Source: Tetmemena sp. SeJ-2015 | Taxonomy: Eukaryota > Ciliophora > Spirotrichea > Sporadotrichida > Oxytrichidae | Length of the DNA: 64,000 nt | Reading direction: 5' to 3' | Assembly: GCA_027382625.1 (NCBI GenBank) | Contig: JAJKFJ010021349.1 | Coordinates: 1 to 64,000 of the forward strand | Shown: piece by piece, positions 1 through 58,400 of the stretch | Numbering within the stretch: the first letter of the stretch is position 1 | Layout: each line of letters begins with the position of its first letter | Position numbers and translations under genes: made by a program | The notes under the pieces: model-generated | Database searches by the model: none | Told to the model about the DNA's origin: nothing | The model's input: the letters and a program-made list of their open reading frames with translations, nothing else

Positions 1-333
1 ATTTTTAAAAAAATTTGGGGAAGTCTATAAGCGCTTCATCGATTCACAGTTTTTGTACGTTATGCCATTTCAACGATAGATGTTTGCTACAGTCTACGGA
101 GAGATCTTGGATAAGGAAACTATCTATGGAAGATTTCGCGCGCTACTCAAACTGAAGTGCGCTTAGTGGCGAAGAGTTTGAGGATCAATCAAATAATTGA
201 TGTGCACATCTTGAAACTTAGAAGTGCGATGAGGAACAGCTGCAACTCCTAACTTTCTCATCTGCAAAGCAACTTTCAAATGCGAGAGTATAGGTGCGCG
301 CTGGCACTCTCAACATTTTTGCGATGGAGTTGA
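1..333 (+). CDS. Open fragment at window edge, possible kinase-like piece
   Basis: With TAA/TAG read as Gln the frame starting at base 1 stays open to a TGA at 331-333, which lies inside the first copy of the 207-bp direct repeat. The stretch is GC-richer than its surroundings and looks like coding sequence. A segment with the pattern RRDLGQGNY followed about 20 residues later by a VAK motif weakly recalls the glycine loop and lysine of a protein-kinase N-lobe, but spacing and other motifs are not convincing. It may be one MDS of a gene lying mostly outside the window. Identity is a guess; coding nature is moderately supported. Confidence 0.25.
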
Positions 334-519: not shown

Positions 520-3503
520 ATTTTGAATGTAATTGCACTTAAGTTGTAAACTTTATTTTTTTCTATTATCGGAAATAGTGCATCCAGAACTCTATAAATT
601 GACCACTGTTGCTTGTATCGATCTATGAATTCATGCTTATCATCTTCTATCTTAGTTCCATTCTCAGAATCTACATTCGAAGTAACACATGGTTCATAAA
701 TTACCTTAAATGAGCTCTCTCAAGTTATTGAAGAGAATGAAATCCTGGTCATTTTTCGAGAAATTAACGTTCAGCATCAAAAGGGCTTTCTTAATTATCC
801 TTTTCGCAATTTTTGAAGCTAAATCCTTCTTCTTCAAACCTAATTGGATATACTCAAATGTACTACCTATTACTTGCAATGCCTCGTCAAAGCAAATGAA
901 ATCCTCCCTTGACTAAAATATCGGCTTCAGATTAGGATTATCTGGCTCTGCTTCTCTATGAGCTAAATAGTTTGTGAAGTTTTCATATCAATAGAAGCCG
1001 TAATCATGATCCAATAAGGTTTCATAAGTATCTTTCTTCTGATAAAAGAAGAACAGTCTCAAGCACCTGTAAAAGAGTGCTCAGCTTTTCTCTTCTAGGT
1101 AAAAATAAAAGTTATAAATATAGGTAATAAGATCTGCTTGAGTTCGCCTTGACAAATGCATCTAGGATCTTTGATTTCAATAAGTTATCGCCGCCTCCTT
1201 ATCTATTCCTTTAGAAAGTACCTGTCATATTATAAGGCCTCTCTTCCTTTTTGATGAAAGAGAATAAGGACATAGGAGCTTTTGGTTGAGCCTTTTACTT
1301 CATCTCTCAACTATAGTTTCCTTCTCCCATCATAGAAATAAGCTTGTTTATAAGTCTATTCGATAGTTTCAGCTTTTCTGTCTGGGCGTTATCTCTAAAG
1401 AATAGGATTTTTTTGCCTATGGTCATACTCTCGTTACTCATTTCTCTTATCCATTTGGATATCTTCTCTGAAATTTTTTCGCATACCTTCTTATAATTAC
1501 CTTCTATAGTCATTTTCTACTGATAAAAGGGATTAACTCTTATAAGATCGAAATCGTGCTCATACTCTAGATTCTAGTTTCCTCCTTTAATGATCTTCTT
1601 AAGCTCTATCTCAAGTATCTTTAACCCTTAAACGTTTATTCCATTTTCAATTAGCTCACTCAGCCTTTCAAAGTCAGTGTCATTTACAGCATCCTCATCG
1701 CTTCTTAAAAAGCCATATCTATAGAGAGCCTAAATGGATTCCTCTAAGTGATCCTAATTTTAAGTGTATTTTGATAAAACTTGGTGGCTGAACCAAAAGC
1801 GCTATCTAAAAAACATACGAGCATAAATCGTCTTTGCCTTGCCATCTAAGGTAAGGAAAAGTTATATGAGGCATTTTTCTTCATCAGTGAAGAGATTGGA
1901 GTAACTAAACACAGTTTTGAGAACAAGGTCGAAGTTGCGGACATACCTAAACTAAATCTAAATAAATAGAGATGAATATACGTACCTGTTGTCTTAATCG
2001 ATGGGAGCTCTGTAACTTTACAAATTTTGCAGATGACTACTTTAGCTTTAAGACTCAGTCATTGTAGATTGTTAGGAGACTTATGATGATTGGATTTCTT
2101 CCTTTATTTATTGAAGCGCTTCTTCGCTTACTGAAACTTGAGAGATTACCATATCATCTGGTGGCACATATTCCTTGAAATAGTCAAAAACCTCCTCCTC
2201 TAATTCTTCCTATTCAGTTTTGCAAATTTAAGATTTTTCTTTCGTTTCTTCGATTGGGTCTTTCATACTAAACTCAAACCCGACTTCTCTATTTATGTTA
2301 TCTTTGTTTATATTCTGAAATGCCTTAATGAGGGCCTTTGGCATATTTTGAAAGTCTTTAATGCTGAAACTTTAGCATTCTGAATCAATTTTATCATTGA
2401 CAGCCGAATCTTTAATCCTCTAGTCTTTCAAAATATGCTCAAGAAAACTCACTGCTATATCCACTCTATCAGTCTTTCCTGGTATAGTGAATTTACTTTC
2501 TATCTTGAAGTAATCTCTATTTTCGCTAATGATTGTTGAGAGATTAAACGAGAAATCAACTGCAAGATAACCAAGCTCATACATTTCGATAAGTCCTTTC
2601 TTTGACTAATCAATTTTACCATCCAGCTATGCGAGGTCAACTTAACACACTACTTTAATTGCATGCTCGTATCTTTATCTGCTCTTATCTCTCTCAAGAA
2701 AAACTTTTATAGCAGATTCCTTCGAACTCTGTTCTTATTAACCCTCATTAAGGGGCATTCACTTGATTTTCATCTTCTCTCTCACTTTCTTATGATTTTC
2801 CCAATAAGATTGTGCAAGAAGGATCTTCTGTCTAAATACCATAGGAAATCGATAGTAGATATGCTTTGGTTTCCCGAAATTTCCAACTCCAGTTGAGCCA
2901 TTATTTCCTTATTTAGAGTTTAAATTAGATTTTGAATTAGAAGTTGATGTGTCAGTTCAACTTGAAGAGTAATAGTCGAAGTAGGGATCTTAGTCTTCCT
3001 GCTATTATTTTTGAGAAGGGGTTATTTAAACAAAGCCATCTAGGCTCTTTTACCCAGAGGGTTTTTCCATAGGTCTTAATAAAGGCTAGATTTTAGTTAC
3101 AAGTAGAGAATTTCCTGAAAATTAATTAAGGCGTGATTGATCCAAGAGTAATTTTAAAATTATTTTTCACAATAAAATGCAAAGTTGATCTCATTTAAGT
3201 ATTTACTTATAGTAATACAACAACAAACGATATATTCAAACTTTAAAACTGCTATCAAGTCACTAAGTAGTATTATTGGTTAAATTTTGGCTTCCCTCAC
3301 TTTGGAATGTGGTGGAATACAATTTAAGGATGCTGTTACAAGAATTGTTGCTGGTTTTGCTGCTACTGCAACTTATTGCCATTCTAAGTTTTACTCCAGA
3401 CAAACAAGTTACCTGAATTCATATGACTAAAACCATTGGAGCTGTTGCCCATCATAGATATCGTATTTTAAGCCTTCGATGCTGAAGCAGAGTTTGTGTT
3501 CAT
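520..3503 (-). CDS. FAN1: FAN1-like nuclease gene, C-terminal nuclease part not seen
   Basis: Minus-strand gene with ATG at 3503. The first 150 residues are Asn/Gln/Ser-rich. From about 2000 downward it carries the FAN1 hallmark region: RNFDLVLKTV, then a segment ending in YARMFFRQRFWF and a helix with YRYGFL, as in the FAN1 SAP/central region (DNA interstrand crosslink repair nuclease). A later part (about 1050 down to 760) matches the region before the FAN1 TPR domain. Introns at 1947-1985 (39 nt) and 671-704 (34 nt) join in frame. In-frame TGA codons occur at 2959-2961, 2759-2761, 1307-1309 and 988-990; each can be removed with a frame-neutral 18-bp repeat-bounded insert. About 3060-3300 is AT-rich and probably a larger IES. 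The VRR-NUC catalytic domain expected at the C-terminus is not found before the reading frame enters the repeat at 517, so it is either elsewhere (scrambled or outside) or lost. Confidence 0.7.
976..997 (-). other. Candidate 18-bp IES in FAN1-like gene (pointer CTTC)
   Basis: GAAG (CTTC on the coding strand) at 976-979 and 994-997 are 18 bp apart. Removing one copy plus the spacer keeps frame and deletes the TGA at 988-990. Confidence 0.55.
1305..1326 (-). other. Candidate 18-bp IES in FAN1-like gene (pointer GAGA)
   Basis: TCTC (GAGA on the coding strand) at 1305-1308 and 1323-1326 are 18 bp apart. Excision is frame-neutral, removes the TGA at 1307-1309 and joins two open blocks of the same frame. 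Confidence 0.55.
2946..2967 (-). other. Candidate 18-bp IES in FAN1-like gene (pointer TCAA)
   Basis: TTGA (TCAA on the coding strand) at 2946-2949 and 2964-2967, 18 bp apart; excision is frame-neutral and removes the TGA at 2959-2961. Confidence 0.5.
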
Positions 3504-3798
3504 CTTACCACTATTTCCAAAAATGCAGATAAATAACTATGCAGAATAAAATTAATCATTTTTCCTTAAGCGGCATGAAGTGAATGCTGGATTTACTAAC
3601 CATTAAAACCTCAGAAACTCTTAAAATTGTAAAAATATAAATACTTTCAAAGAGCAAGTAAAATTTAAGTAAAAGTGTCCAAATAGAATGATTTTGAGTT
3701 AATACGAAAGATAATTAAAAATCAAAAGGACTCTTAGTAAATTTCTTAATTTTTAAAATGATGGAATTAGTTTAGCTTGAGATAGTACTAGAACTCAT
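3504..3798. promoter_or_regulatory. AT-rich 5' flank of FAN1-like gene
   Basis: About 300 bases between the presumed FAN1-like start and repeat copy 2. No coding sequence is recognised; probably 5' UTR/promoter and germline spacer. No specific element can be named. Confidence 0.3.
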
Positions 3799-4007
3799 CA
3801 ACATTTTTGCGATGGAGTTGATGTTGAGAACTGGCTATTACTACTGATAAGGGTGACTACATCCATACCTTAGAGTCAAAATGAAACTGAGATAGGATGG
3901 ATCATGTAGTTTTTTTGAGTAATTTCGCGTTTGACTCGCATGATTATAAGTATTAATAAAGAAATTAATTATATACAACTTATTTTCACTTTCTTATAAT
4001 ATTATGG
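3799..4007. repeat. 207-bp direct repeat, copy 2 (with foldback)
   Basis: Second copy of the unit at 311-517, same orientation and about 3.49 kb away, with the same CTACATCCAT / GGATGGATCATGTAG foldback. It lies directly at the 3' end of the minus-strand low-complexity reading frame at 4010-5160, which reads into it and stops at TGA 3876-3878. The two copies flank the FAN1-like gene like ends of a mobile or duplicated segment. Confidence 0.85.
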
Positions 4008-5160
4008 AGTTTGATTGCTCATACTCCTTAATCCGTGATTAGGTTAGAAATCTAAAACTTTAGGTTTCAGGAAATTTCCGACATTCTAATCTTTTTAAGC
4101 TTGCCCTGGTCTCAGACTTTACCCTTAAATTATTCCTATAGATCCTGAACCAGTATGCCCATTTGACATTCCTGTAGCTAATGGACCTTGAGATTATGAT
4201 ATAACTTCATTGCCATTAGACTAGCGATTAATGTGAAAATTTCTGGTATTTTATATTACCTGAAGCCCTCCACTAGACTTGTACTCTTTTCTTTTCGCGT
4301 TCGTATTACTGTGCTGCATGAACATATTTAAGAAATGAAAAAATTAATCTCAATTTTCTTGATTGAATTCTAATGCGTTTTAATGCGCACTCGAATTACC
4401 TCCTCCCCCACTCAAGCTATTCTACTTAACCATTCTGAATTTCTTCTTTTTAAATATTGGAGAAGATTAGGCTTGGACGGCGGGTCCCCCATTTTAAAGT
4501 AGGCTTTACTAAGCTATCAAATAATTTTATGTCCCGTTTCTAATGTTCATATGCTGGTGATTCATGTTAATTAAGTTTTAGAAATGAAAACTATTATGAA
4601 CCTAATATAAAAAAGTTTTTGCTATTCAAATAAGTCTTAAATTAATTTCCCCCAAGGGTCTTAGAAAAGAGGAGCGGGGAACTTTCCTCATCTAATAGTG
4701 ATGACTGTAGCTATTTAGCCCAGTCCTTATTTTAGATCTATTGGTCTTTATTGCCTTGCATAATTTTGTTTATCGAACTTCCAAGGGGTGGTCGACTAGC
4801 AGCCACACCTAAGCTCGTTGCTCCAGATTCATTTTACTTGCTGAAATTTATAGCTTGATGATTCTAGCTCTATAGCTTTTAAGTTTCCTCTGGGGTTAAA
4901 CTATTCTGATTATTGGAATTAGTTTTCAAGGTGCTGAGACCATCTCCAAAGCGAGTGGAGTGGTTATGACTAGTCACATTTTAATTCTTAGAAATTATAG
5001 GTGTGTTAAATTCGTTTCCTTTCTCAGCGTAATTTTGAGATATTGCTCCAAAAATATTTTAAGAGCCTGCTGCTACTTTATCTTTGCTTTGCTGCTATTC
5101 TTCTGCCTAATTAATGCTATAGAAGAGAATATATTGGAATAAAAATTAATAAATTTTACT
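3876..5160 (-). CDS. Low-complexity Q/N/S/G-rich reading frame, probably C-terminal part of the TTLL gene
   Basis: On the minus strand the sequence from about 5150 to 4010 is open in code 6 in long blocks, rich in Gln, Asn, Ser and Gly, with many TAA/TAG glutamines, typical of disordered tails of ciliate proteins. Frame breaks occur near 4580 and 4320. A GT..AG intron of about 40 bases is possible near 4220-4260. The last frame runs into repeat copy 2 and ends at TGA 3876-3878. No domain is recognised. It continues the direction of the TTLL C-terminal tail upstream (higher coordinates), so it is most simply the end of that protein, but the AT-rich gap at about 5160-5330 could also separate two genes. 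Confidence 0.5.
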
Positions 5161-5330
5161 TAAATTAGAGAATTTACAATTTTTTTTCTTCAAATACTTC
5201 TCTTAACTTCTTAAATAGTAAAAGGGACTTTACTTTTAAATTTTTATGAGATCATCTCATAGAGTAATAAGTGACAAACTTCAATATAAAATCCTAATTG
5301 TGATTAATACCATCTTCAAAATTCTATAGA
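5160..5330. other. AT-rich gap (IES or spacer)
   Basis: About 170 bases of AT-rich sequence without usable reading frame between two minus-strand low-complexity coding blocks. Either an IES within the TTLL tail or a short intergenic spacer. Confidence 0.4.
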
Positions 5331-6741
5331 TAGAAATTCCTCATTTTAATTTAAATTGTTGCTATATTAGTTTTAAGAGGCTGGAGCTCCAAAGCCTAGG
5401 CTCGCTTGTTCAGAAGTTTATTTTGAGTTTGATTTTTAGTTTCTGAAGACTTGCCCTCTGCAAGTGATTGTGATTTCCCGATTGCTTAATTTTGTTCAAA
5501 CATTATTCTTTACTCAATAACTTATTTAAAAAATGTAAAACTTATGGAATCCCCTATTTCAAGCTCTCCTTTGCTTGCATAATCAGTTGCTAAATTTACT
5601 GAGTGTTATTAAAATTATTCGATCCATTGATAACCAGTTGTTGCTCTTGATACTTCTGAAATCCATTAGTCAGACTGAAAGGCTTCTAAAAATTCTTGAT
5701 CATCATTGGGAAGAACTCTTTCACCATTATGCAGCTTCCCTTCTGTTGAATTTGCTTTAATTACTGTTGCTATTGTAAATTTTACTAGGAGGAATCAGCA
5801 CTCGCATTTTGAGCTGCCAAAGCTGCGAGGAGTAATTGTTGAGACTGGCTGTGATTCTAATTTATCAAAAGTGAAGGTTAAGAATTCAACTTGTGCGTGG
5901 AGTTCTCAAAGAAAGGTTGAGATACAGAGTTAACCTAGAGCTATAAGTTCAGCTTTTATATCTATTGATAGCTTGCTATCTATTTTAGAAGCTCTTGCTA
6001 ATTTTAGAAGGTTTGGAAATCTATGTAGTCAGATACTCCATTAGTCCTATTAAGTAAAGCCTTGTGATTAATCTTTGCTAGAAGTAACTGAGATTCTAAA
6101 GTCCTTAGTTGGTCTTGATCTGTGGCTTGTCTCCCTAGAATATGATCATAGGATTAATTTCCACCCAAGGCCATTAATGGATTCACTTTTACATTTCTGT
6201 TGAATCTTTGATTAACGTTACTTGAAGCCGCCAGAGATTGTCTTTTATGAGTCCTACTCTAATCAAAATTTTAGAAAGCATTAGTCCGAGAAAACTGCCT
6301 CTGTATTTAATTTAAGTCATTTTACTCTGTAGGAACCTTACTTATTTGCTTGCTCTTTGCTTTGCTATTAGAAGTGGATAGTTGCTATCATCTTGGCCAG
6401 CATTACTAGACTATTGAGTGTCTTTGCTGGGGACTTTGATGCTATCATAGTCCGAATTATTGAAGAAGTGTTCCTTCGTTTAGTTGTAGTTGCTTTATAA
6501 ATTTGTCGAGTTTGCATTTGTCTTGGTTACTTATCTTTAAACTGGTAGAACTTTGAAGCTGTAGATACTACAAAAGGCTTAGGCTTATTTTCTAAAGATT
6601 CTAGACGCTTTTTCCTCCCAAAGCACCCAGTTTGAATCTCCCAGATTTCCTTAGAATGGTCCATCAGCTTTTAATACTCTTTCATAGATTCTTCGTATTC
6701 ACTGGGATAGATTAACTCGTAACCTCCGAGATTCTTGAGCT
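5330..6741 (-). CDS. TTLL: TTLL MDS 18 and C-terminal tail
   Basis: Begins at pointer AGCTCAAGAATCT (complement of 6729-6741) with NLGGYELIYPSEYEE, the conserved end of the TTLL domain, then a basic region and a long Ser/Asn/Gln-rich tail. The frame shifts near 6470-6520, and some blocks are open in two frames, so small IESs remain unsolved here. The tail is unlikely to be catalytic; such tails in TTLL proteins usually hold targeting or microtubule-binding stretches. Confidence 0.75.
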
Positions 6742-9700
6742 ATAAATAATCATAATAAAGCTCATTAGGATTACTAAATCTTTCACATTCATGAAATCAG
6801 ACTTGAGTTTATCTTTGAAAGTTCCCTAAGGCTTTTAAGATTTGCCTGTTAGCATTCGTTTCTCCATGTCTTCTTGCATCTGCTATTTATAAAAGTTCTT
6901 CCTCTTAGCTGAGAGTCCCAATAACTTGAAAGTGTCTCTAATTAACTCACTCTTTATCTTATAGTCTAAAGGTGAATCAGTAGAGAAACTAGGACTGTGG
7001 TTCACCTCTAAGAGTATGGGTTTGCATCTATGGTCGATCATATATTTATAAACTCAATTCAGGCTGGCTTGCTTATAATCTCCAGATGATGTCCTTGATG
7101 TTGTCCCAGAGAGTTATAGTAAGTTATAATTTATCAATCATAGTGTATTTTAAACTTCGCTTATGACCCACAGAGTGTTAACATATAAAACAGATCCACT
7201 CCATACACTAGAACGTAAATTTTCAATAAATTTCAATTATAAGCCATCCATTAGGTAAGGCTTATTTACATACCTCTAAACTACACAGTGCTCAGATAAC
7301 TCAATCTCACTGATGTTCCTTGTCAAAAAGATCCCTTTGCCAATAAAATATCAATATAAAATTACCTACTATAAGTATAATTTGAGTGATGATAATTTCT
7401 GTTTCTAAAGTTGAAATTAGTTTCATTTCCTGATTCGTTTTCAAGAACTTAGTCACTCACAAACTCCGATGCCCCTTCTTCAGAGAGATAGTTTTTACTT
7501 TGATACTTTGCTTCACTTTGCTGCGAGCTTTCGAACTTCTGATTATGACTCGCTGCTCCTCCAACTACCTTCATCTTTTCTCTGGTATTTTTACTACTGT
7601 TACTGTGAGGCAACTATACAATCGATTTCTCACTGTGCTTAGCTGATGAAGAAGCCCTCGATTAAGACTATTTCGAAGATGATCCAAGATCGAGCGTTCT
7701 TCTTGGCAGCAAAAACTAAGATTACTACTCTTAATCAGTAGCTCCAATTTTAGAAGCATTGGGCTTATTTTAGTTACCATTATTCGATTATTCTTCACCG
7801 TCCTATATGTAAGATGAAGGCTTTGCCTATCTGAGAAGGAGCTGCAGATTTTGCTTGGCTGGGGAAGATTCTGAAGGAAGAGAAAATTTCTGAGCTGGAC
7901 TTGAGGATGTTTATGTTGGCCTCTTTTACAACATTATAGTGTTTTCTAATCTGTCATTCTTTACATAAATAAAATTAAATGCTTGTATAAAGTTTAAATT
8001 CTTTTAGGTGTGAGAACGAGATGGTTAGTGTGAGTCTTGTCAATATTATTGTGAATCCAAAATATTGGTGCTGCTTTGCTTACTAGAAGGAGTTTGAGAA
8101 ATTTGGTTTACAACTGAGATAGTCTATTGTGGCACTTAAAATAGATAATATTAACTTTAGCAAGATCTTGCTTAATCGGATTTCTTTCCGCCTCTCTTGG
8201 GATATTATTGTTATTCTGGTTTTGAGGAGCTACTTATAGCGTAGTTAATTTTCCATTATAAGTGAATTACTTTTATAGAGAGAAAATCATTTAACTTACA
8301 TTATATTTTAAGATTTATAATTTAATCAACGTTAATTAAAGTCTTGTCTCCTTTTTTTAATTTCTTCTTCTATAAAATTCAATAGTTGATAATTAATTAT
8401 TTTTATTAAATTTTAGATAAATTTACATTTTTTTTGTCTATATTGAGAGGAGGCTAAGATGTCATATTTAATTTTAAGTATTCTTTAATTAAGAGTCTAT
8501 CAATCAATTCCTCTTCTTACTACTACTATTGCTCCTATTAAGTTCGTGATAATTAATTTTAACATGGGATTAAATTTGGTAAAAATTAAATTTATCAAAG
8601 AATAGAGGGACATATTATATCAAATGACAAGCCATAATTGCTAAATAATGGTAAAATAGCTCTGACTAAATGGAGTTAAGTTTTTATTGCTTCTAAGCGA
8701 AAAAATTGTTGAGATTTTTAATTTATATTTTATGTTTGATTTATAAGCAAATAAAGAATCATTATATCTTTGCAGTTTGAAATTATCATCACAGACAGAG
8801 AAGCTTAGTCAAAAGAGGGTCAAAATAAGTAAAGCAGAACATCAAATCAGACGATGAAGATGAAGAGGAGGAGGGATGGATGATGATGATGACTAAATCG
8901 ATGCTGTGGATTTTGATGAGGAGGAGGAGCCAGATGAGGGAGATGAAGAGGAGGAAGAGGGCGGAGAGGCTGCAGAATATGCAACTAACAGTGCTTGCTC
9001 AGAGGAGGAGAGCATGATACTTGAAGAATCATTTGACTGCTTTGGAGAGATCACAACTTCGCTCAAGAAAGACACTCTCTAATAGTAGGAGCTATTCAAC
9101 TAGAAGAAAAAGAGCGTAAATTTATAAGAGAAAGAAAGGAATGATTATATTTTGCTTCTCTACTTATCTTATTAGGAAGATTAATAGGCCCACAAGCAAA
9201 TCTAAAGTGACTGGCAGTGATATATTGCTCAAGGGTAATTGAATAATTCCAGAGTAATAAGAAGTTAGTAGCCCCCACTTTCAGGCAGTCAGAATTCAAA
9301 GAGACAAACTATTCAGAACTAGGAAAGTGGCTTAATGAATAAGAGTAGCAGTAGCTTTAATCAATCAAGGTAAAGTTTGCCCAACAGCCACCAATAGTAG
9401 CAATAGTAAAATAAGCTCACCTCAGTTTACCAAAAAGATAGTCAACTGGAGTCAGGACAGCAAAACATGCTCTCAACTTAGCTCACTTCACAAGAAAATA
9501 CCAGCAAAGACACTAGGTTAACTTTGAATAGTAGCACCTCTACTAAGACTCCTAGAGTTTCGACTAATCTGGGTAATGCATAAAACGTTTAAGGTAAATC
9601 CAGTTCGCGTCTAGGAAAGTAGGGTGAATAGATTAAAAGTCCCACAAGCTTGAATAAACAAGAGGAGGCAAGACTTGCACAGTACTTAAAGCTTGGTCAA

Positions 9701-10891
9701 GAAATGAAGAACAATCTCAATGACAGTGCAACTGCAGGGGTAGAAAATCAGGAACTTTAAAATAGCTAAATTGCAAAGAACAATAAGCAAGTGAAAAGAC
9801 CAAAGCTGATCATAAATGTTTTCTACACAAAGTATGACATAGTTCGAGAAGTTGCGAGAGACTACTTTCAAATGAGAGTGTGTTATATTAATCTCTTATA
9901 TGCCAAAATTTTTAATAGAAGATGGCTTAAAGTTTGACCTGAGAATTTACGCATGTAGAATGTTTCATAATAAGCATTCCTTTTAATCCTCTTCGCATTT
10001 TCTTGTACAAGGATGGACTATACAAAGAATACTATCAATAAGTCTAGCCTGATGACTTAGAGAATTCCCTCTGCTTTGAAATTCTGGGATTTGACATTAT
10101 GCTCGACCATATTTTATTATACTATTAGAGAGGTCTATTGTTTTTGAGAGTGTGTGAGGATGATGTAGAGGAGTTTGACCTATTTTGGTCTGATACCGCA
10201 ATGGCACCTGAGAAGTTACAAAAGCTGAAGCCCTACCAAAGATTAAACCACTACCCTGGTATGTATGTACTAGCGAGAAAAAATAATCTAGGAAAGCATC
10301 TCAATAAAATGGCTAAGAAGTTTGAGTAAGAGTACTCCTTCTATCCTAAGACGTGGATGCTCCCTAGTGAAATGAGTGAGTTCAAGAATCATTACAGCCA
10401 AGCAATTGATAAAAACCAAAAGGCAGTTTATATAGTTAAGCCTGAAGCTTCTTGTTAGGGCAAAGGGATCTTATAACTTAGATCATAATGGAGTGGATCC
10501 TCTTTGAAATAATTGGACTATGCAGGTTAGCAACTTAGCCCTATCAGTAGGTTAACAGCAACAATATAGAGGAGATGTGCATGCATCTCACTAATTATGC
10601 AGTCAATAAGTTTGCTACTAACTTTGTTCAGAATAAAGATGCCAAGCTTGACTCTGTGGGATAAATGTGCATTAAAAAACTATGAAGTACCTTAAGAATG
10701 TTAAAGGCGAGGATACTGAAACTCTTTATGCTAAATCATTTGCTAAATGTTAGATCAATGACATCATCGTAAAGACACTTATTGCCGGTCATCCAACTCT
10801 TGGTCACGTTTACAGATCTTGCCAGCCTAAATTATAAAACTTTTGAACATCATAAATTGAATGTGAGGGACCATTATGAGCTCAAGAATCT
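5330..10891. CDS. TTLL: Scrambled germline gene for a tubulin tyrosine ligase-like (TTLL) enzyme, at least 18 MDSs on both strands
   Basis: TTLL enzymes are ATP-grasp ligases that add glutamate, glycine or tyrosine to tubulin tails, acting on ciliary and cortical microtubules. The recognisable motifs, FDLRIY, MHLTNYAVNK, CFEILGFDIMLD, LLEVNHSPSF and NLGGYELIYP, are present but in the wrong order and on both strands. Matching pointers gives this order: 1(-)8256-7386, 2(+)8779-9883, 3(+)10145-10472, 4(-)7341-7240, 5(+)9921-9951, 6(-)7221-7193, 7(+)10490-10504, 8(+)9986-10021, 9(+)10514-10660, 10(-)7176-7138, 11(+)10679-10725, 12(-)7115-7085, 13(+)10760-10828, 14(-)7068-7059, 15(+)10046-10111, 16(-)7037-6783, 17(+)10858-10891, 18(-)6741 downward. 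Every join is in frame and restores the canonical TTLL domain. N- and C-terminal tails are Q/N/S-rich. Further small IESs remain unsolved in segments 1, 2 and 18. Confidence 0.92.
6783..7341 (-). CDS. TTLL: TTLL minus-strand MDS cluster (4, 6, 10, 12, 14, 16)
   Basis: On the minus strand these six MDSs lie in correct relative order, separated by IESs of 18, 16, 22, 16 and 21 bp, each joining to plus-strand partners at both ends. MDS 4 encodes the GKGIFLTRN to KPYLMDGL segment, MDS 6 the IYVLVYGVDP segment, MDS 10 a basic linker before MKYLKN, MDS 12 LWDNIKDII, and MDS 16 the start of the C-terminal lobe with ILLEVNHSPSFSTDSPLDY. MDS 16 ends at pointer TGAATGTGA (6783-6791), and 6742-6782 is the IES before MDS 18. 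Confidence 0.9.
7386..8256 (-). CDS. TTLL: TTLL MDS 1 (inverted, N-terminal)
   Basis: Likely start ATG at 8256-8254. The reading frame is Ser/Asn/Gln-rich, with an internal AT-rich insert at about 7935-8030 and frame changes near 8040 and 8230 that indicate further small IESs or an intron. It ends with the pointer GAAATTATCATCAC (plus-strand complement at 7386-7399), shared with 8779-8792 on the plus strand, where the frame continues without shift. Confidence 0.75.
8257..8778. other. AT-rich segment at an inversion breakpoint
   Basis: About 520 bases between the divergent starts of MDS 1 (-) and MDS 2 (+). No open frame is recognised. It probably holds the promoter of the TTLL gene on the MDS 1 side and otherwise germline-limited sequence. 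Confidence 0.45.
8779..9883 (+). CDS. TTLL: TTLL MDS 2 (acidic and Q/S-rich N-terminal region up to the domain start)
   Basis: Starts with pointer GAAATTATCATCAC and ends with TGAGAGTGTGT (9873-9883), which recurs at 10145-10155. It encodes an acidic run (Asp/Glu), a Gln/Ser-rich linker and the first TTLL strand (KRPKLIINVFYTKYDIVREV). The acidic part has a frame break near 8860-8885 that an IES between repeated GATGA motifs (8859 and 8879, 20 bp) would repair. A TGA near 9213 requires removal of about 9116-9268 (GT..AG ends, 153 bp, divisible by 3), an intron or IES. Confidence 0.8.
9921..10891 (+). CDS. TTLL: TTLL plus-strand MDS cluster (two interleaved series)
   Basis: Left to right this tract holds MDSs 5, 8, 15, 3, 7, 9, 11, 13 and 17, so two ordered series (5-8-15 and 3-7-9-11-13-17) lie side by side. 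Pointers seen twice in the locus: GATGGCTTA (9921), AATTTACG (9944), ATCCTCTT (9986 and 10497), TGGACTAT (10014 and 10514), AGCCTGA (10046), TCGACCATA (10103), GGCAAAGGGATCTT (10459), GGAGTGGATC (10490), ACTCTGTGGG (10651), ACTATGA (10679), AACTCT (10720), GACATCATC (10760), GCCAGCCT (10821), TGAATGTGA (10858) and AGCTCAAGAATCT (10879). The spacers are 9-35 bp IESs. MDS 3 encodes the part from FDLFWSDT to KPEASCQGKG. Confidence 0.9.
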
Positions 10892-10968
10892 AATCAATAT
10901 TATTGACCTTAATTCTGAATTGCTTTAGTTTTGTGTATTAATTATAGAAATACACTTAAGCATTCAAT

Positions 10969-13255
10969 ATGAGTACCAGTCCTAAATAAACCTCTAGAAA
11001 GTAATCTCTAGTAAAAAATTGCAGCTGAGGAGACAGCAACACCAAAATTTGATCCAGTCTAGCCTCACCATCATGATAAAGCTCCTCCTCAGAAAGAAGG
11101 CAAGATTATCGTTAGAAATCTTGGCTTTGACTTGAAGGAAGTGCATCTTTAGAAGGAATTCCCTAAGTTTGGCCAAATTGTTTCAGTTTCCGTGCCCATA
11201 AAGAATGAGAACAATTTGAACAGAGGATTCGGTTTCGTAGAGTTTGCCTCCAAAGAGGATGCAAATAAGGCAATCTAAACTATGAATGGAGCTAAGTTCA
11301 AGGGTAGAGTGCTAGCTGTTGAGCTTTCAGCCCCAAGCAGAAAGTATGAGCACAGAGTACAGAGTATAGTAGAGCACACTAAGATGAGTAGACAGGATGC
11401 AATTCAGCCATAGGTCTTAAGACAGGAGAAGGAAACGCAATAGAAGGCTAAAGAAGAGAAATAGAAGGCGCAAGAAGAAGCAAAACAACTAAGAGATAAG
11501 AATAAGGTGGAGCAGACTAAATAAAAGGAGCTAGAGAACAGTAAGAGACAGGATAGAAATGCAAAGACCAACAATAAAAAGGATGGTACTACACTCTTTG
11601 TGAGAAACATCGGCTATGATACAGATGAGCAGCAGTTTAGACAGTTTATGGAGAATTTTGGAGAGCTGAAATACGCAGTGCTGTGCAAAATAAAGGAGAT
11701 GCGACTTAATGCTGAAGAGAATGGAGGTCTCGAAGGTCAGACTACCCACAAGGGAACTGGGTTCGTTCAGTTCAAAGACGAAGCTGTTGCATAGCAACTG
11801 ATTGAGCTTTCTTCAAGTATTGAATTAAAGCTTGATGAGGAATGAAAGGCCAGCAGACTCAAGGCAAGGAGGGAAAAGGAAAAGACAGGCAAGGATTCAC
11901 TCATAGATAACAAAGGCATTCTTAGTGTTATCACTGGTGAACTTGAACTGAATGGAAGAAGACTAGTTTATTTTTCTCTCCTAGTTATAAAGGAGGCTTT
12001 AAATAGAGCTGAGGCAGTTGAGAGGTAGCAAAATGAGTAAAAGCAAAAGTTGCAAAAGGAAGACAAGAGAAATCTTCATCTCAAAAAGGAAGGTCTCCTT
12101 AGTGAGGAGAACTGGATACACAAGCAACCTCGCCCTTCTTAGAAAGATCTAGAACACAGACAGCGCTTGTTAAAAGAGAAGGAGACCGCCATCTCCAAGA
12201 ACACTAACTTGTTTGTATCTAAGACCAGAATCCAAATCAGAAATCTGCCCCGTAGAGACTTCTTTGAGAAGGAATTGAAAGAGCTGATGATGGTTGTGAT
12301 AGAGGAGTGGATTAAGACTCTCAGAGATAAGTCCGTTTTAAAGGACACTAAGAAAAAGAAGCTTCTGAAGCAGGTTAAAATCTTAAGAGATTAGGAAAAG
12401 ACTGATGTAGGTGGAGATAGCTTGGCTTCTGGATTGGGTTTTGCTGAGTTTGAGACACATGAGCTTGCTCTCTTTGCACTTCGTTATCTGAATAATATGC
12501 AACTAGTGAGCCACAAGGGTTTGATCTCAGACTTCTCTTTGGAAGATGCTAGAGCACTCCACAAAAGAGAACTCAAGCATTAGAAGCAACTGCAGCTTGC
12601 TAAGGAAAAGAAGAAGGTAGAGAAAGAAGAAAAGAAAGAGCGTGATGCCAAGGAGGCTAAGAAGGTGCAAGTGCCTGCTTCTGGAATTGTTGAACTTGGC
12701 AAGCGCAAATCCCCTGAAGGTGAGACAAAGGCAGAGAAGGAAAAGAAGCCGACTGTTGATAAAATCACCGATATGGAGTTACTGCATAAGATGATGCGCC
12801 AAACTAACAGCAGAGGAAAGAGACAGAGAATAAAGAAGAGAATTGACTAGCTAGAGGGTAAAACTGAGTCTACTGAATAGACAAACGAGACTAAGGAGAA
12901 GAAGGTAGCAGCAGTTGTGGATACTCCCAAGCCTAAAATCAAGGAGGCTAAAGAGGTGAAGCTAACTGCTCAAGAGAAGGTGTAGAAACTGCTGAAGAAA
13001 AGAGATGAGAAGCTCAAGCACAAAGAGGAGCGCAAGCGCCCACATTTATTAGAGGAGGATAGAGAGATCCTGAAGAAGTTGAGAAACTCCAAGAAAGATA
13101 AGAAGAAGGAGAAGGCAAGAGAGACAGATGAGTTTGATGATATGCTCAAAACTTACAAAAGCAAGGTACTCAAGAAAATGAAAAAGGGTCTAGAAGGTGC
13201 CAGCGAGAAGCAAATCAAAGAGGGAGACTTTATGGAGGTTGAACTCAGTGATTGA
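10969..13255 (+). CDS. RBM28: RBM28/Nop4-like multi-RRM ribosome-biogenesis protein
   Basis: ATG at 10969 (78 bases after the last TTLL MDS), stop TGA 13253-13255. At least three RRMs are visible: one with IIVRNLGF and RGFGFVEF (about 11100-11330), one with LFVRNIGY and KGTGFVQF (11590-12005), and one with IQIRNLP and LGFAEF (12220-12560). The linker RNLHLKKEGLL and the block SKTRIQIRNLP are diagnostic of the RBM28/Nop4 family, which acts in nucleolar assembly of the large ribosomal subunit. The C-terminus is Lys/Glu-rich and ends with a DEFDDMLKTYKSKVLKKMKK type motif, like the family's tail. Two 18-bp inserts (11827-11848, 11963-11986) interrupt the second RRM. A frame break lies in the first 25 codons near 11000-11030, so the exact N-terminus is uncertain. 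Confidence 0.88.
11827..11848 (+). other. 18-bp IES in RBM28-like gene (pointer AAAG)
   Basis: AAAG at 11827-11830 and 11845-11848. The insert carries an in-frame TGA (11842-11844) in the middle of a conserved RRM; excision of 18 bp is frame-neutral and removes it. Confidence 0.7.
11963..11986 (+). other. 18-bp IES in RBM28-like gene (pointer CTAGTT)
   Basis: CTAGTT at 11963-11968 and 11981-11986. Removal changes a six-residue-too-long strand into GRRLVIKEALNRAEA, which has the normal RRM beta-4 spacing of the family. Confidence 0.75.
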
Positions 13256-45394: not shown

Positions 45395-46740
45395 TATGAC
45401 TCTAATAAACTAGTGGTACCTACTGTTTATAATTCAGCTAATGATGTGGTTCACTTATACACTCTAGATCGAAATACTCTCCAGGTCTTGAATACACTTA
45501 GGATATCAATCAATTTATATAATTTTAATAAAAATAAGAAGAATGAGAATTTAAAGGCAAACTAGCAATTTAAAAGAATAAAAAAACATAGAATGAAGAC
45601 TTAGAGCTTGTATATAACTAAAAAACAACACAAGGAAATAAAGTAAGAGAATATAAGGAAAATGCTAAATTTACCTTTAAAGGAAAAAGATAAAATTAGT
45701 AATTTTTGATTGGCTAATTTAAGTCTGCTTTATTTCATTCAAAATAGCGATTCTTGACCCAAAAAAAATACTTCCCAATAGAGGAGCATTTAACGATAAA
45801 GCCAAAATTTATTTAAGAAAGCCGCCTGAAAGGTAATTGGATAAAGATTAATGTGGAAAATTTTAATTGATCCTTCATTTTTAAGAAGAAAAGATGTTTA
45901 AAACGCATTTTTAATTTAATTAGAAATTAGGTTCTCCAAAACATTGTACTTTTTTCGTAAAATATTCGCTTAATTTTTAACTCTAGACTGTTAAATGATG
46001 ATTTTTATTAAACAATGGATAACTCTTCCATCCTCCTTCGATATGACATCTTTATCGATTTCTGTAGATGATACTCCAGCTAAATTTATAAAATTAATTG
46101 CTTATTATACTATTTATAGGAAAAAATTATATCAAATTATACTCTAAGCAAAATTGGTTTATATATCTTGTAATGGGAAAGAAATAGATTTTCTTTGCCA
46201 AATTTACAGGTACATATAATTTAGTATACTAGAGAATTTGGACTGGGAATGGTCAGTCTACTTTTTATGCAAATGTTTTATTTATTTGTGGTGGGCACAA
46301 GAATGTATAAGTGCGAAAATTATTATCAATTTAATTAACTTTTTGCTTTATTGGAAAATTAAATAAATAAAAGTTATAACAGACTAAAAAGAATTATCAT
46401 CATTTTATATTTTAATAATTCATCCAAAGAGATTTTAAACATGGAAATCATTTTCAAATATTTGTAAACAATACAAAGCTTTAGTTTAAAAAGCTAGATT
46501 TTTTAAATTAAAAATACATAAATAGTTATATTATGCGTTGCATCAACTGGATGTGCATCAGATGCTTTATTTTCAGGGTTTAGTGCATATCTAGGGTCTC
46601 CTGGATTTACAGCCAAAGGCCACTTAATTTTTAGAGGCACCAAGGAAGATAATTGCTTCGATATGTTTGAAACTGCTCCCACAAATAGCATAATTTTATT
46701 AAATAAAATAGAAATATATTTCGTAAAACGCATTTAATAT
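45395..46740 (+). CDS. MDS-like islands 45.4-46.7 kb
   Basis: Open plus-strand blocks at 45395-45500 (YDSNKLVVPTVYNSANDVVH), 46000-46110 (ITLPSSFDMTSLSISVDDTP), 46175-46325 (FAKFTGTYNLVYQRIWTGNG) and 46540-46740 (STGCASDALFSGFSAYLGSP, then GTKEDNCFDMF). AT-rich inserts of 70-500 bp separate them. The last block is also open in the minus strand but composition and the neighbouring islands favour plus. Confidence 0.5.
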
Positions 46741-47869
46741 TTAAATTATTTATAATTGCTACAATTTAATATAGTGTAGCACATGGTATGGTGTATATGT
46801 TAACATTTCATCAGCATCATCTCCGCCCTCCTCAATAAATGCTTTTTAAATCATTAATAAGGCTATGTTTAATAAAGTTAAAAATGTCAACTAGATTCTA
46901 ATCCTCTCTTCTATTTTTAACTAAAATATATAATCCATTTAGACTCAAATTTCATTTCTATAAGAAATAATTAAATAATAAAATATTCCTTTATAATTAA
47001 TTATTATATAATAATAATTAAATATTCTTTATTCAAATTATATTTTTAAATTGATCAATAACAGATATTGCAAACTTTAAAGCATTAATGTTTTAAAAGG
47101 AAAAAATACAGTGCAATACTCTGAAAATTTGAAGCTATAATTAATTTATCAAAAATATAGATAGAAATAATCGTTTCTTGTTTTATTTCAACAAAGGTTA
47201 TTTAAGTTTATATGTTTTTAGCTAATAAACCATTTTTAAATTATTTTTTAGAATATTGGAGTTGATTTTGAGAAGAATACTGATAATTACTATCCAATCT
47301 ATTTAAATATCATGAGAATAATTAAATTTTAATTAGGTAATAAATTTTCAGTGCAATATCCTCAATTCAAAAAATTAGGTGATTAAAAAAAACTTAAATT
47401 TGAGAAAGAAAAAGTGATAATAAAAGGTTTACCTTCTATTCTCTTTCTGTTTCTTTTGTATAATCTTAGAATTTAATTTCATTTAAATTTGAACCATTTA
47501 AAATTTAAAAGAGTATTTCATTAAATAAAGATTTAATTTATTATCGTTTATAAAATATGCTTTTAAAATATTAATTTATTCGCTCAAATAATCTCTTTAT
47601 CGTTTTTCCCAAAAGTATTCTATTAATATCAAATTGAAACTAAATATGTTAAGAAGGCTAACAACATTTTAAATTTAACTCTAATGACATAAAATTTTTC
47701 ACTTTAACTTCTCTAAATTTAAATTTAAAAATAAAGTAAAAAGACCATCATTACTAAAACTGCTTAATTTTATTTAATATTTCAATAGTTTCTATATTAT
47801 TGTAATAACAATAAGAAATAGTATGTTTGCAAATTAATTATTTGTAAGAATATTTATTTATTATTTGAG
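46741..47869. other. AT-rich IES-like stretch
   Basis: About 1.1 kb without recognisable coding except a doubtful short block at 46800-46850. Confidence 0.4.
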
Positions 47870-48945
47870 TGTTGGGTACTCAGCCTAAACTTATCCTTAT
47901 GCAAATGATGCAATGTTAAGAAGCTATACTGCTGCAACTGATATTCCAGGCTATATGAAAAGATATCCTATAGGGAGTGAGGGGTTCATAATTCTCTTAA
48001 ACATATAACTATCAATTTTCCATCAGAGATTAAAGCATTATACAAAATAAAAAAAGGCTAAATAGAAGAAATTTATTACATTGGTCTCAAACTTAATCAA
48101 TTAAAAAAACTATATTTCTCATCAGATTATTTAAAAATATCCCTTATTATAAATTTATATAAAATATGGATATTGAGAAGGAATTTGAGATGGTCGGACC
48201 TAATGAAAATTTTAATTTGAGTTTTGTCTATTTACAATTTGTTTCTCCCGTAACAAAATAGTTTCTATATTGAGAGTTAATTCTATAATTTGTACTTTAA
48301 AAATGGCTTATACATAATTAAAGATGAAGACTCTCCAATCATTTTAAAACTCTCAAATCTAGATATCACAGGATGATTAATATAAAAATAATTTATATGA
48401 AATCCTTTTTCAGCAAATCTTTCTGTTTTAGCATATTTTAAAGAATTGAATATGAAGTATCTATCCCCTCCAAAATATCCTTATAACATGTACAAATGTG
48501 GTATGATATTTAATACACTAAAAATTATTATTTTTATCTTTAATTTATATTTAAATATTTTGCAATTAAAATTTGTGAAAATAACTTTTATATTTACTTT
48601 TATCCCCATAAATTAAGTTTTATAATGAGAATTAGTGTAAAATAGTTATGAACTTCTCGTCTATAAATATTGGATATACGAGTAATTCCAAATTTATAAT
48701 TGATAATGATAGCAAGATAGAAAATTTTAGAGTAATCAATATTTGAATTTCCTTACAGAGGTGTTGCTGGTGCAGAATCATTAATATCGCCCTACACTGG
48801 GGTCAACTGTTAAGATAGAACTGTAAGTGTAAAGATCTTAAATGGAATTAATGGCACTCAAACTCTAACTGCAGATTAATCCCTCACCTATTATACAGCC
48901 TCACCTACACAAATGTCATTTAAATAAGATAAATATACTTAGTTT
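47870..48945 (+). CDS. MDS-like islands 47.9-48.9 kb
   Basis: 47870-47990 encodes VGYSAQTYPYANDAMLRSYT and a Gly/Tyr-rich continuation. 48740-48945 encodes GVAGAESLISPYTGVNCQD and VKILNGINGTQTLTADQSLT, beta-rich with one cysteine. Between them is AT-rich DNA. Confidence 0.5.
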
Positions 48946-50935: not shown

Positions 50936-53119
50936 CATATAAATCTTATAATGGAAGTAGAATAATGTATTTATAATTACAATAAAGAATGAGATTAAAA
51001 TAATTTAATATCTATTTAGTGTGGCTTATTTTATCATTTCATGCAATTTTTAATAAATAAGATCATTTATACTTAATTTTAAAAGCATATGCAAATCAAA
51101 TTTATTATAATGAATGAAGGCAAACTATTGCTAAAAATATCAACGGCAATTATGATATAAAAATAATTATTAATTATTTAAAAATCGTTATTTTCTCATT
51201 ATAATTAAAAAAATATAAAATAAAAGTAAATTAAATTAAAAGTGCTATATATATATATACACATTATTTTTAGATATAAATACATTTATATCATAAATTT
51301 ATTCTTCGATACCTTTTTCTAGTAGATTATTGATAATTAAAGTGTCTTATGAAATTTTATGTTGAGTTTAAATCAAAGTCAAAATTTTAAATATACAATT
51401 TATTAGTTAATAGTGTGGTCAAAAAAAGTGATAATTAGAAACTTGATAGATTCCAATGATCTGAGAATAGATATTGTTAAATTTACGTTTGAGTATATCA
51501 ATAAACTTCAATTTTTAAAAATACTATAGTTACTATAGCTAATTTTTAGGATATAATGAGAATGACTCAGTCTCTTACACTTTATTTAGAAAATAGTTGA
51601 ATTCTTTTTGAAAAATATTTTGGTTTATGATTTCGTGAGCAACCCTAAGAATTCTTCATTGTTTATAGCGGCATTACTATACAACAACTAAACTGTTTCA
51701 TGGAGATAAAAATATTATAAGATTTCCAGGCCATATCATGACAAAATAATTATTTTTCTTTAATTTTGATAAATTAAAATTATATAATTTATTGCTTAAA
51801 TTGATGATCATGTTCTATGATAACGGAACTGAGCTATCAAATATTATTTTATCTTCTCTTTGGGAATACTATTTCTCAAATTTAAACAATTCATGTGCAA
51901 TTTTTAAAAATTATTTAAAGCAATATTAAACTTAAAACTTAGTAATATAGGGAAGATAGGATTAGGTGATCATAATAATTTAGATTAATTAGATTTTACC
52001 CGATAATTAATCATTTGCATTATTAATACTCAGATTTATAAAAAATGGGTTATAGAAATACTCAAATAGAAACCGCATCAGATCATTTAGAATTACTGCT
52101 TCTATTGCTAGATCTTTTTCATCCAATAAAAGAAAACATGCCATATGAGTCAGAACTAAATATGATAAGCTTATTTAGTTTTCATAATTTATAGAGAAGG
52201 TAGCAGGCCTTGAGAACTTCTAAAGTTCAATGTTTCAAAGGGAATTAGTGAACTGATTAAAGAAGAAATCCTATAACAATTCTTCAATTCTCTGATAAGA
52301 TGAGCTTAAATAGATGACTTACGTCGGATACTTCCCAGTTACCTTAAGAGATTATTCTTCATTTGAATCTAAATTTTTTCGATAACCTATTTCTATCTTC
52401 CCTATATTTTATCTTTTAATTTAAATATAGTTGAAGATGTACTTTTATTTAGAGATAATGATAAATAATTTCAGCCAGTTTACTAATAAAGTTTTAAATC
52501 TGTTAAAGATTTTAATTAGAATAGATATATACTCCCGATGGTACAAACACCCCCAATATGGGGTAAAGTTACTTCGATCAAGTAAATAAATTAAACAAAT
52601 AATAAAAATAGATTAAGGTAATAAAAAATTAATATCAAAAAATAATTTCACTGTTTACACTTTAAATTTTTACGATCAGGATACGGATCATGTTTACATT
52701 ATAATATGAATTTTATCACAAATTTGAAATATTTTAAGTGTGTTATCTTTCAACATTTAATTTAAATTTTAAATTTAAATTTTAAAGAAGATAAGAAAGA
52801 GTAATCAAGAATAATTAAGTTTAATAAAAAATAGGCAATTATTATTTAGACTTTCCTTCTCTAATGAAAGGTTAAGAATAAAAAATTAATAAATAAGTTA
52901 TTGAGATATGATTTAAAAATTAATTTTTGAAGATTAAAAGCTTTAATCTAAATCTACGATTAAATCTTAAATCTATGACAGATTCAATCCCTTTATTTCT
53001 TTTTAAATTTTATCTAGCTTTAATAAAATACAACACATATTATAAAAATGCAAAAATATTAAATATATTCTAAATGAACCATAAATTTTATACCAAACTT
53101 AAAAAAAATATGAAGAATA
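50936..53119. other. AT-rich stretch with weak islands
   Basis: About 2.2 kb, mostly AT-rich IES-like DNA. A short block near 52535-52570 (YTPDGTNTPNMG) and a slightly GC-richer zone at 52050-52390 may be coding, but strand and frame of the latter are unclear. Confidence 0.4.
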
Positions 53120-53225
53120 GCTGTTAACTCTTAGTAGCCGTTTCTGTTAACTAGAAAGAATACTACTTGATGAAAATTAATGCAACTTCAGGAGCATAAG
53201 TTTGGGCCAGAAGATTAAGCATTAA
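53120..53225 (+). CDS. MDS-like island with second SBBP-type unit
   Basis: Open block with LLVAVSVNQKEYYLMKINAT followed by SGAQVWARRLSI, the same KI..TSG..VW pattern as at 50.5 kb. Confidence 0.55.
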
Positions 53226-54109
53226 TTTAAATACAAAAAATTAATTTTTTTATTTTAACTTAACCAATCTATGAGAAAAAAGTATTATAAATGACGTATT
53301 TTATCCAATGACAGCTAAAATCTTGTTTATTCGTTGTAAAAACGATAATATATTAAAATTAGTTTTTTTAACCTCTTCTTAAAAAAATCTGTTGAGTTGC
53401 TTGTCAAAAATATATAATATTTTTTACACAAAATTTTTTTAAATTTCCTTCACTTAATTATAAAAATGTTATTAGGGTTAATTATTTAATTTTGGTAAAA
53501 CAATTTTTAATTAATTATTAACTAACTTATAAATAATATAGGCTATCAATTTAATTATTTATCTTTAATCAGAAAATATTGATTATTTTAAGCATTTCTC
53601 AAGCCATATTAAAATAAATTATAATTTAATTATAAATCTTTAATTCTTCTAGATTGATTTAAATTTAAGAGAACCACAAATATATTTTTAATTTAGTATA
53701 TGTCTTTGTTGAAATAGTTTTAAAACAGCAAATTTTTAAGATTGGGTGAAGTTGTAAATATTTTAAAATTAAAAAATATAACATAGCTAAATCCAGTCGA
53801 TGGAAGAATTTTAAAAATGAAAAATGGAAGAGATTAGGGTCACTCCACTCAACACTTAAATAAATCAGCTTAAAGATTTATAATAAAGAATCCTAAATAT
53901 TGAGTTCTATGAGTTTTTAGTTTAAATAACCAATTTTCTGAATGAAAGAAAGAGAGGAAATTCTTTTAATAAGAGAGACCTAGCTTTTGACAAATTTTGA
54001 GAGTCCTCTTCTTCCTTAGCCTTCTACTAGATCTAAAAGTGTTTTCTAGAAACTAAAATTTAAAAATAGATGTGCAATTAATGATAGTTTTAATTTGTTA
54101 AGATTAATT

Positions 54110-57225: not shown

Positions 57226-57639
57226 ATACTTCTACAATTTATTAAACTATTTTTAATAAATTAAATAAATTTAAACTCTATAATTTAAAAATTTAATTTT
57301 TATTTCTTACTGGTAATATACTTTTGAGATATAAATAATTATGATCTTTAAATCCTTATCTTACCTTTTATCTAAAATAGGAATAAAAAAGGTGCTTTTA
57401 AAGCCGACGTCTTCTCTCTTTTTTCATAATTAGGAACGACAAAATAAAAAATTTATCATCATAAATGAAGAATAATTCTTAAAAATTCTATAATATGCTT
57501 GGTCTTTAAATTTTATATAGGAAAATAAATTTTTTCTAAAAATAATAAAATCAATAAAAATTAAAATGATCTCATAATGAAATTGTGAAAAGATTAAGAT
57601 TTGTTCAAAATCCTTCCAGGTATATTATATAATCAATTT

Positions 57640-58400
57640 ATTTTCAAGAATCTAATACTTACTCGGCAGACGTGATGCTCTAAGTGATAATTTATCCAAA
57701 CACAAGAAATCTAGCATCAATTGCCTTGCCTGATGAGGTATGCTCAGACTACACGCAAAAATATCCTAAAGTATTCGGGGGAGGACCTAATGGAGGAGAC
57801 TTCACAGTTTTAGGAGCAGAAATGGATTAAGATAACGGAAACTTGGCTTTATGCGGGTACACTTACAGTTTCTTATAAAAAAATAATTATAATAAAATAT
57901 TTTAAAGTCCAACATGGTAACCTACCTACTATAATCTCGGAGGCTAGAATTCAGGCTGGATTTAATATTTAAAGCACAATTGTTATATTTAATAAGATTT
58001 AAAAGAACTTAAGAGCATATTAATTCTGTCTTTTTATAGCAATATTAAATAAAAATTGTATATGGATTTTTCTGACAGATCTTAATAAATCCCATTAATT
58101 TAATTAACAATAACTCATTTTTGCATCGCTATTTTAATTAGAAAGAGGATTATTTTTCTACTGTCCACAGTTATTAAGATGAAAGCAACTTTAATATAAT
58201 TATTATTGCAAATTAATTTTTAAAAATCCTGTTTGAATGGAATGCTTGTATGGGGATATTCAGGAGTATCTTTAGATTCAACTAAACCATCTTCTCGTTT
58301 TATCGAGTGTGGCATCGGTGGTTCATAAAATGGAGTTTATGGCATGTTTGAAGTTGAAACTTCAGATCTAACTATATCTATCCTTTATTTAAACAATAAA
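57640..58400 (+). CDS. MDS-like islands 57.6-58.4 kb
   Basis: 57640-57885 encodes SADVMLQVIIYPNTRNLASI, then VCSDYTQKYPKVFGGGPNGG and ALCGYTYSFL, about 80 codons. 58225-58400 encodes LNGMLVWGYSGVSLDSTKPS and FIECGIGGSQNGVYGMFEVE. Both are Gly/Ser/Tyr-rich with cysteines. Confidence 0.6.

Follow-up and report, generated by a model that had tools for sequence, protein, structure and literature searches.

A germline TTLL6-like tubulin polyglutamylase gene predicted to be scrambled into about 18 segments on both strands of a ciliate contig

Bases 1-64000 of contig C2428 (the window; assembly of 146,216,379 bases in 5213 contigs) very probably carry, in its germline (micronuclear) form, a spirotrich ciliate's gene for a tubulin polyglutamylase of the TTLL6/13 type, divided into about 18 macronuclear-destined segments (MDSs). 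When the window was translated with TAA and TAG as Gln, fragments of a TTLL protein appeared on either strand in the stretch from about 5.3 to 10.9 kb. A preliminary description had claimed a TTLL gene shuffled into at least 18 MDSs on both strands; we knew this claim but not the coordinates of single joins, and worked out the order of the pieces from conserved protein stretches and from the repeats (pointers) shared by their ends. The 18 MDSs and 17 joins were re-derived in this way from the sequence and then checked with a script, in agreement with the claim. The pieces, their pointers, their frames and the colinearity of the joined protein can be read directly from the DNA. According to excerpts of PMC9797194, pieces of Oxytricha and Tetmemena genes are joined at pointers in the developing macronucleus under the guidance of template RNAs, one pointer copy being kept. 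By analogy with this Oxytricha literature, the cell would join the MDSs described here, guided by template RNAs, at 17 pointer repeats within 5.5 kb of shuffled germline DNA, retaining one pointer copy at each join and discarding spacers of 9-44 bp, so that an intact gene would result.

The joining order, from MDS 1 to MDS 18, is m1 p1 p2 m2 p3 m3 p4 p5 p6 m4 p7 m5 p8 m6 p9 m7 p10 m8 (m, minus strand; p, plus strand), whereas the order along the plus strand is -18 -16 -14 -12 -10 -6 -4 -1 | 2 5 8 15 3 7 9 11 13 17. From the coordinates, the pieces fall into three monotone series: MDSs 1, 4, 6, 10, 12, 14, 16 and 18 on the minus strand, and 2, 5, 8, 15 and 3, 7, 9, 11, 13, 17 on the plus strand. 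The two interleaved plus-strand series described earlier are thus recovered, and the minus-strand pieces do keep their order as had been stated, but there are eight of them rather than six. By chance, a perfect order of the eight minus MDSs is expected in 1 of 40,320 cases, and no more than one descent among the plus MDSs in 1,014 of 3,628,800 possible orders, so the arrangement of the MDSs is not random. Within the clusters, the 15 spacers measure 9-44 bp.

Each of the 17 pointers is identical at both partner ends, as verified by the script, with lengths in reading order of 14, 11, 14, 9, 8, 12, 8, 8, 10, 7, 6, 9, 8, 7, 9, 9 and 13 bp, which bears out the 6-14 bp repeats reported previously. 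The longest word common to the two ends averaged 9.5 bases in the 17 true end pairs and reached at least 8 in 14 of them. Of 272 false end pairs, 11 were dropped for overlapping windows; in the other 261 the mean was 4.7 and the maximum 10, with words of at least 6 bases in 43 pairs and of at least 8 in 4. Among 100,000 random pairings, in which all windows were kept, none attained the observed sum of 162, the best reaching 134. If pointer 9 is counted as 9 bp, thirteen of the 17 are present exactly twice in 4800-11000, both strands considered.

Judged from its sequence, the joined product is a TTLL6-like tubulin polyglutamylase with a complete TTL domain and a TTLL6-like extension, and its predicted activity is the elongation of glutamate chains on tubulin. 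The joined core matched the Pfam TTL family with 276 bits over positions 7-281 of 292, whereas six single open reading frames (ORFs) gave 66, 37, 40 and 28 bits, with two lacking any match. The TTLL6 structure (PDB 6vzt) aligned colinearly to query residues 3-423 of the joined core with an E value of 4.7e-108, and the structure comparison favoured TTLL6 (365 bits) over TTLL7 (328 bits); unlike TTLL6, the product of the locus has stretches beyond the core that are acidic or rich in Q, S and N. A search of approximately 5.8 billion proteins gave 2457 matches at E <= 0.001 among 6881 candidates, the first of the 120 listed proteins being 51% identical across 93% of the part used as query. Among these 120 listed matches no near-identical (macronuclear-type) protein was present, the highest identity being 53%. 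Seven relatives, hand-picked from the 120, were aligned with the core and are 47-51% identical to it. At the 16 core joins no gap falls within the pointer residues, and the surrounding windows of 14-16 residues are gap-free at 12 of the 16, with gaps near joins 2, 9, 10 and 11. Thirteen of the 15 core parts share 25-100% identity with each relative; the weakest are the end of MDS 2 (19-47%) and MDS 11 (15-46%). The expectation that the joined translation would be colinear in a TTLL alignment was therefore borne out both by the TTLL6 structure and by the seven relatives over 16 joins.

The first piece in reading order, MDS 1 (7386..8040, minus strand), is placed by its pointer and frame and ends in the 3' pointer GAAATTATCATCAC at 7399-7386; its 5' limit of 8040 is arbitrary (the end of an in-frame TGA), and the next in-frame ATG lies at 7934. 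MDS 2 (8779..9883, plus) encodes an N-terminal acidic and Q/S-rich stretch followed by the start of the TTL region, and its terminal pointer TGAGAGTGTGT (9873-9883) recurs in MDS 3 (10145..10472, plus), which ends in GGCAAAGGGATCTT at 10459-10472. Thereafter the reading alternates between the strands, through MDS 4 (7240..7341, minus; pointers GGCAAAGGGATCTT and GATGGCTTA), MDS 5 (9921..9951, plus; GATGGCTTA and AATTTACG) and MDS 6 (7193..7221, minus; AATTTACG and ATGGAGTGGATC). Three plus-strand pieces follow: the 17-bp MDS 7 (10488..10504; ATGGAGTGGATC, 12 bp, and ATCCTCTT, 8 bp), MDS 8 (9986..10021; ATCCTCTT and TGGACTAT) and MDS 9 (10514..10660; TGGACTAT and ACTCTGTGGG). Alternation is then resumed with MDS 10 (7138..7176, minus; ACTCTGTGGG and ACTATGA), MDS 11 (10679..10725, plus; ACTATGA and AACTCT), MDS 12 (7085..7115, minus; AACTCT and GACATCATC), MDS 13 (10760..10828, plus; GACATCATC and GCCAGCCT) and MDS 14 (7059..7068, minus), a 10-bp piece, GCCAGCCTGA, positioned between MDSs 12 and 16 and carrying pointers of 8 and 7 bp. 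MDS 15 (10046..10111, plus; AGCCTGA and TCGACCATA) leads to MDS 16 (6783..7037, minus; TCGACCATA and TGAATGTGA), which codes for the EVNHSPSFSTDSPLD stretch, and MDS 17 (10858..10891, plus; TGAATGTGA and AGCTCAAGAATCT) to MDS 18, whose first part (6319..6741, minus) remains in frame 0 to a TGA starting at 6319, the part compared with relatives ending at about 6626. The probable rest of MDS 18, a C-terminal tail at 5250..6318 on the minus strand, consists of Q/N/S-rich open stretches in changing frames.

With TAA and TAG read as Gln and TGA as stop, frame 0 of the joined product is open for 726 codons across joins 2-17, and join 1 was found to be in frame by reading both of its sides, so all joins are in frame, as first described. 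The 435-residue core contains no TGA and nine TAA or TAG codons.

Several points weigh against reading the locus as a gene that these joins restore. MDS 2 changes frame at about 8866-8880 and about 9110-9240, with a TGA at 9218, and in MDS 18 the frame shifts repeatedly beyond about 6600, with a TGA at 6319; both sets of frame changes were absent from the preliminary description. They may be due to further internal eliminated sequences (IESs), introns, base errors in the assembly or decay. Candidates considered by eye for the changes in the two segments are an 83-bp direct-repeat IES at 8858-8940 with a 15-bp repeat, a GT...AG intron at 9116-9175 and single-base errors; a codon-usage scan gave no decision among the candidates and was uninformative for the 5250..6318 tail. 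Four short pointers recur within the locus, with 3-6 occurrences each in 4800-11000, and the shortest pointers are weak individually because words of six or more bases are common among the false pairs. Join 1, between MDSs 1 and 2, lies outside the conserved domain, where its 14-bp pointer and the frame speak for it and homology does not. Finally, the joins are predictions from germline sequence.

The frame changes, together with the size of the TTL family in this assembly (144 matches, with 134 scored of 204 candidates), could be taken to mean that the locus is a dead, rearranged copy of a gene whose functional version lies elsewhere. We consider such a pseudogene very improbable: random breakage leaves no exact, in-frame repeats of 6-14 bp at 17 partner ends together with all conserved segments, and a search with the joined DNA (1315 bases; 5 candidates scored) found no intact or close copy in the 146-Mb assembly, which is possibly incomplete. 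The preliminary description had named an intact, unscrambled germline copy as evidence against its reading. Of the 12 matches to the joined DNA, nine lie inside the window and only three elsewhere, at 67-74% over 117-223 bases, and the same search found no macronuclear copy of the joined gene in the assembly. Even more improbable is an assembly artefact that put the reads of an ordinary gene into a false order. Base errors might account for the frame changes outside the core, but some 17 breaks in about 4 kb would be needed, each ending in exact microhomology and with neighbours 9-44 bp apart, and three colinear series would not be expected.

None of the 144 matches of the TTL family search is on C2428, the scrambled gene having escaped because it is cut into small pieces. 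Elsewhere in the assembly, a paralogue on C2872 is 52% identical to core residues 3-355, which it encodes as a single unscrambled stretch, and the standard order is therefore present unscrambled in the same assembly. The best DNA match outside the window is on C2927 (62500-71000), at 74% over 223 bases, where tblastn recovered core residues 3-27, 33-234, 217-298, 307-333 and 333-394 as separate pieces. The breaks at about 27-33 and about 298-307 are near joins 2 and 15, while the others are not near joins, and the coincidence could be due to chance. A motif search of the 8.5 kb did not find the stretch of about core residues 299-306.

Two further inverted matches in the locus were considered. 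One of 14 bp (9501-9514 / 6430-6417) serves no join and, with an adjoining 11-bp match (9513-9523 / 5938-5928), ties MDS 2 to two sites in the MDS 18 tail with no in-frame join; as an extra join the pair was rejected, being frame-breaking by eye at a place where MDS 2 is open. The other, of 13 bp (9075-9087 / 10132-10120), is needed by no join and is near chance expectation by hand judgement.

How the order arose is a separate matter. Our guess is that the gene probably once existed as several colinear copies, an inverted one and one or two direct ones, each of which kept different pieces. The version with two direct copies beside the inverted one, and with reciprocal decay that left each piece in a single copy, has in our view nearly an even chance; it follows the duplication and decay model that excerpts of PMC9797194 attribute to Gao et al. 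2015. The three monotone series of MDSs are in its favour, as is an inverted partial copy of another TTL gene, standing beside that gene on C2772 and C1287 (perhaps one locus). The model predicts that spacers resemble the MDSs they replaced. Weak similarity past the pointers was seen on the upstream side (p = 0.045, with unclipped windows that may enter the next MDS), and one weak residual match was found upstream of MDS 2 (E 0.045). The downstream side, however, gave p = 0.19 with unclipped windows, and clipped spacers, both sides combined, gave p = 0.23 with windows of 12 bases, 0.15 with 20, 0.10 with 30 and 0.05 with 40. Nor did spacer length follow the length of the replaced piece (rho 0.11, p 0.70 for 15 spacers; rho -0.42, p 0.30 for 8 single exchanges). 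Residual homology between spacers and replaced MDSs, tested in several ways, was thus not established and amounts at most to a hint.

The inverted partial copies deserve description in their own right. On C2772, another TTL gene and an inverted partial TTL copy lie a few hundred bases apart (89386-89787, minus, beside 89985-90887, plus), and the same arrangement is found on C1287, with 3864-4388 (plus) beside 2620-3420 (minus). The inverted copy corresponds to core residues 153-232 at 32.5% identity. The two contigs may represent one locus assembled twice, and it is possible that the arrangement is an earlier stage of scrambling.

The path proposed in the preliminary description, a single inversion followed by repeated odd/even splitting as spacers and MDSs recombine at short repeats, is a serious contender to which we give a little less credence (Chang et al. 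2005, as cited in excerpts of PMC9797194 and PMC5940158). Using a script of our own written after the description excerpted from PMC5940158, we found that the pointer word is emptied by two rounds of removal of return and repeat words: the first removes the adjacent pair 1, the return words [17,16], [15,14], [13..9] and [5,4] and the repeat word [7,8], and the second the return word [6,3,2]. The layout is thus fully reducible, with a recursive odd-even pattern, and belongs to a class that accounts for 96% of the scrambled loci of O. trifallax in the same excerpts. According to that source, however, such a reduction may or may not mirror evolutionary steps, and we found no relative with an intermediate order. 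The nested reduction fits an inversion with subsequent splitting, and three reciprocally decayed copies fit too; a far from random order is predicted by both.

Two of the segments are little more than pointers. In MDS 7 (17 bp) the pointers of 12 and 8 bp overlap by 3 bases and in MDS 14 (10 bp) five bases belong to both the 8-bp and the 7-bp pointer, and because of these overlaps neither micro-MDS has any sequence of its own. As read from the sequences, the product would be unchanged if MDS 6 were joined straight to MDS 8 at ATC, or MDS 13 to MDS 15 at AGCCT. A rough hand estimate from base composition puts the chance of each micro-MDS at about 5e-6, and a chance origin is further argued against because each sits at the right place in its own series. 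We advance, as a doubtful idea, that the gene was once triplicated, with one copy inverted and the other two direct, and that the locus is its fossil, in which each segment survives once and the micro-MDSs are the last remnants of former exchanges. If so, they would be bridges that add no base and mark the point where a scrambled junction becomes a direct one. A literature search for short Oxytricha MDSs with pointers or overlapping pointers, and another for scrambled tubulin glutamylase genes, returned none; neither result implies absence from print.

The scrambling itself cleanly illustrates a phenomenon that is already known. Excerpts of PMC9797194 and PMC5940158 describe, for Oxytricha trifallax and Tetmemena sp., scrambled genes with permuted and inverted MDSs, pointers of 2-20 bp that are longer in scrambled cases, and odd-even clusters of which one is reversed, all features shared by this locus. 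Compared with the genes in those excerpts, the present one is a different gene, has two plus-strand series and contains two pointer-only micro-MDSs. The actin I gene of Stylonychia lemnae, in excerpts of PMC2394655, resembles the locus in that some of its MDSs are inverted and displaced, that joining takes place at pointers (3 to about 19 bp) and that it has short MDSs (27-43 bp without pointers). It consists of 10 MDSs, two of them inverted, whereas the locus has 18, and the micro-MDSs described here measure 10 and 17 bp with pointers included. The interest of the locus lies in its pointer-only micro-MDSs and three colinear series and not in the existence of scrambling, and knowledge of the process is unchanged. 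A compact scrambled gene with 17 precise joins that can be solved without a macronuclear genome, it could be used to test models of the beginning and end of scrambling, as well as programs that reconstruct germline genes solely from pointers and protein homology.

The genetic code, the C4A4 repeats and a neighbouring gene whose best database match is from Stylonychia lemnae (61%) are consistent with a hypotrich host. The code and the colinearity with TTLL6 and the seven relatives support the earlier assignment to a scrambled, pointer-bearing TTLL gene in a spirotrich (stichotrich-like) germline, and the repeats and the neighbouring gene are compatible with it. Euplotes woodruffi does not match as host, because Euplotes, as noted in excerpts of PMC9797194, reads UGA as Cys. 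The C4A4 repeat has 24 forward and 43 reverse matches in the assembly, many of them on C2828, and its pattern is the same backwards, which makes the control uninformative. It stands at base 1 of nine contigs. The seven that were fetched (C1030, C298, C586, C672, C739, C1301 and C4311; 11-21 kb) all start with the 20-base C4A4C4A4C4, and the assembly therefore contains telomere-capped sequences besides ordinary germline contigs. One of them, C1030, was considered as a macronuclear control and left unused, a processed copy being indistinguishable from a paralogue or allele; it is about 94-95% identical to C1848 and C4981, with one 45-bp difference near its start.

Other features of the window lie outside the scrambled gene. 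Direct copies of an element of about 230 bp at 301-529 and 3788-4017 are 94-96% identical and flank an ORF (1310-2758, minus strand) with a weak match to a FAN1-type helix-turn-helix domain (27.8 bits, cut-off 27). The element is a high-copy germline repeat, with 1622 candidates in the assembly, of which all 40 scored were matches, the non-self ones at 97-98%. Beyond about 32 kb the G+C content drops from about 40% to 18-33%. Three of the long ORFs in the region 33000-64000 (45830-47905, 52719-53864 and 57570-58460) lacked Pfam matches at E <= 0.01, and the region is probably germline-limited DNA.

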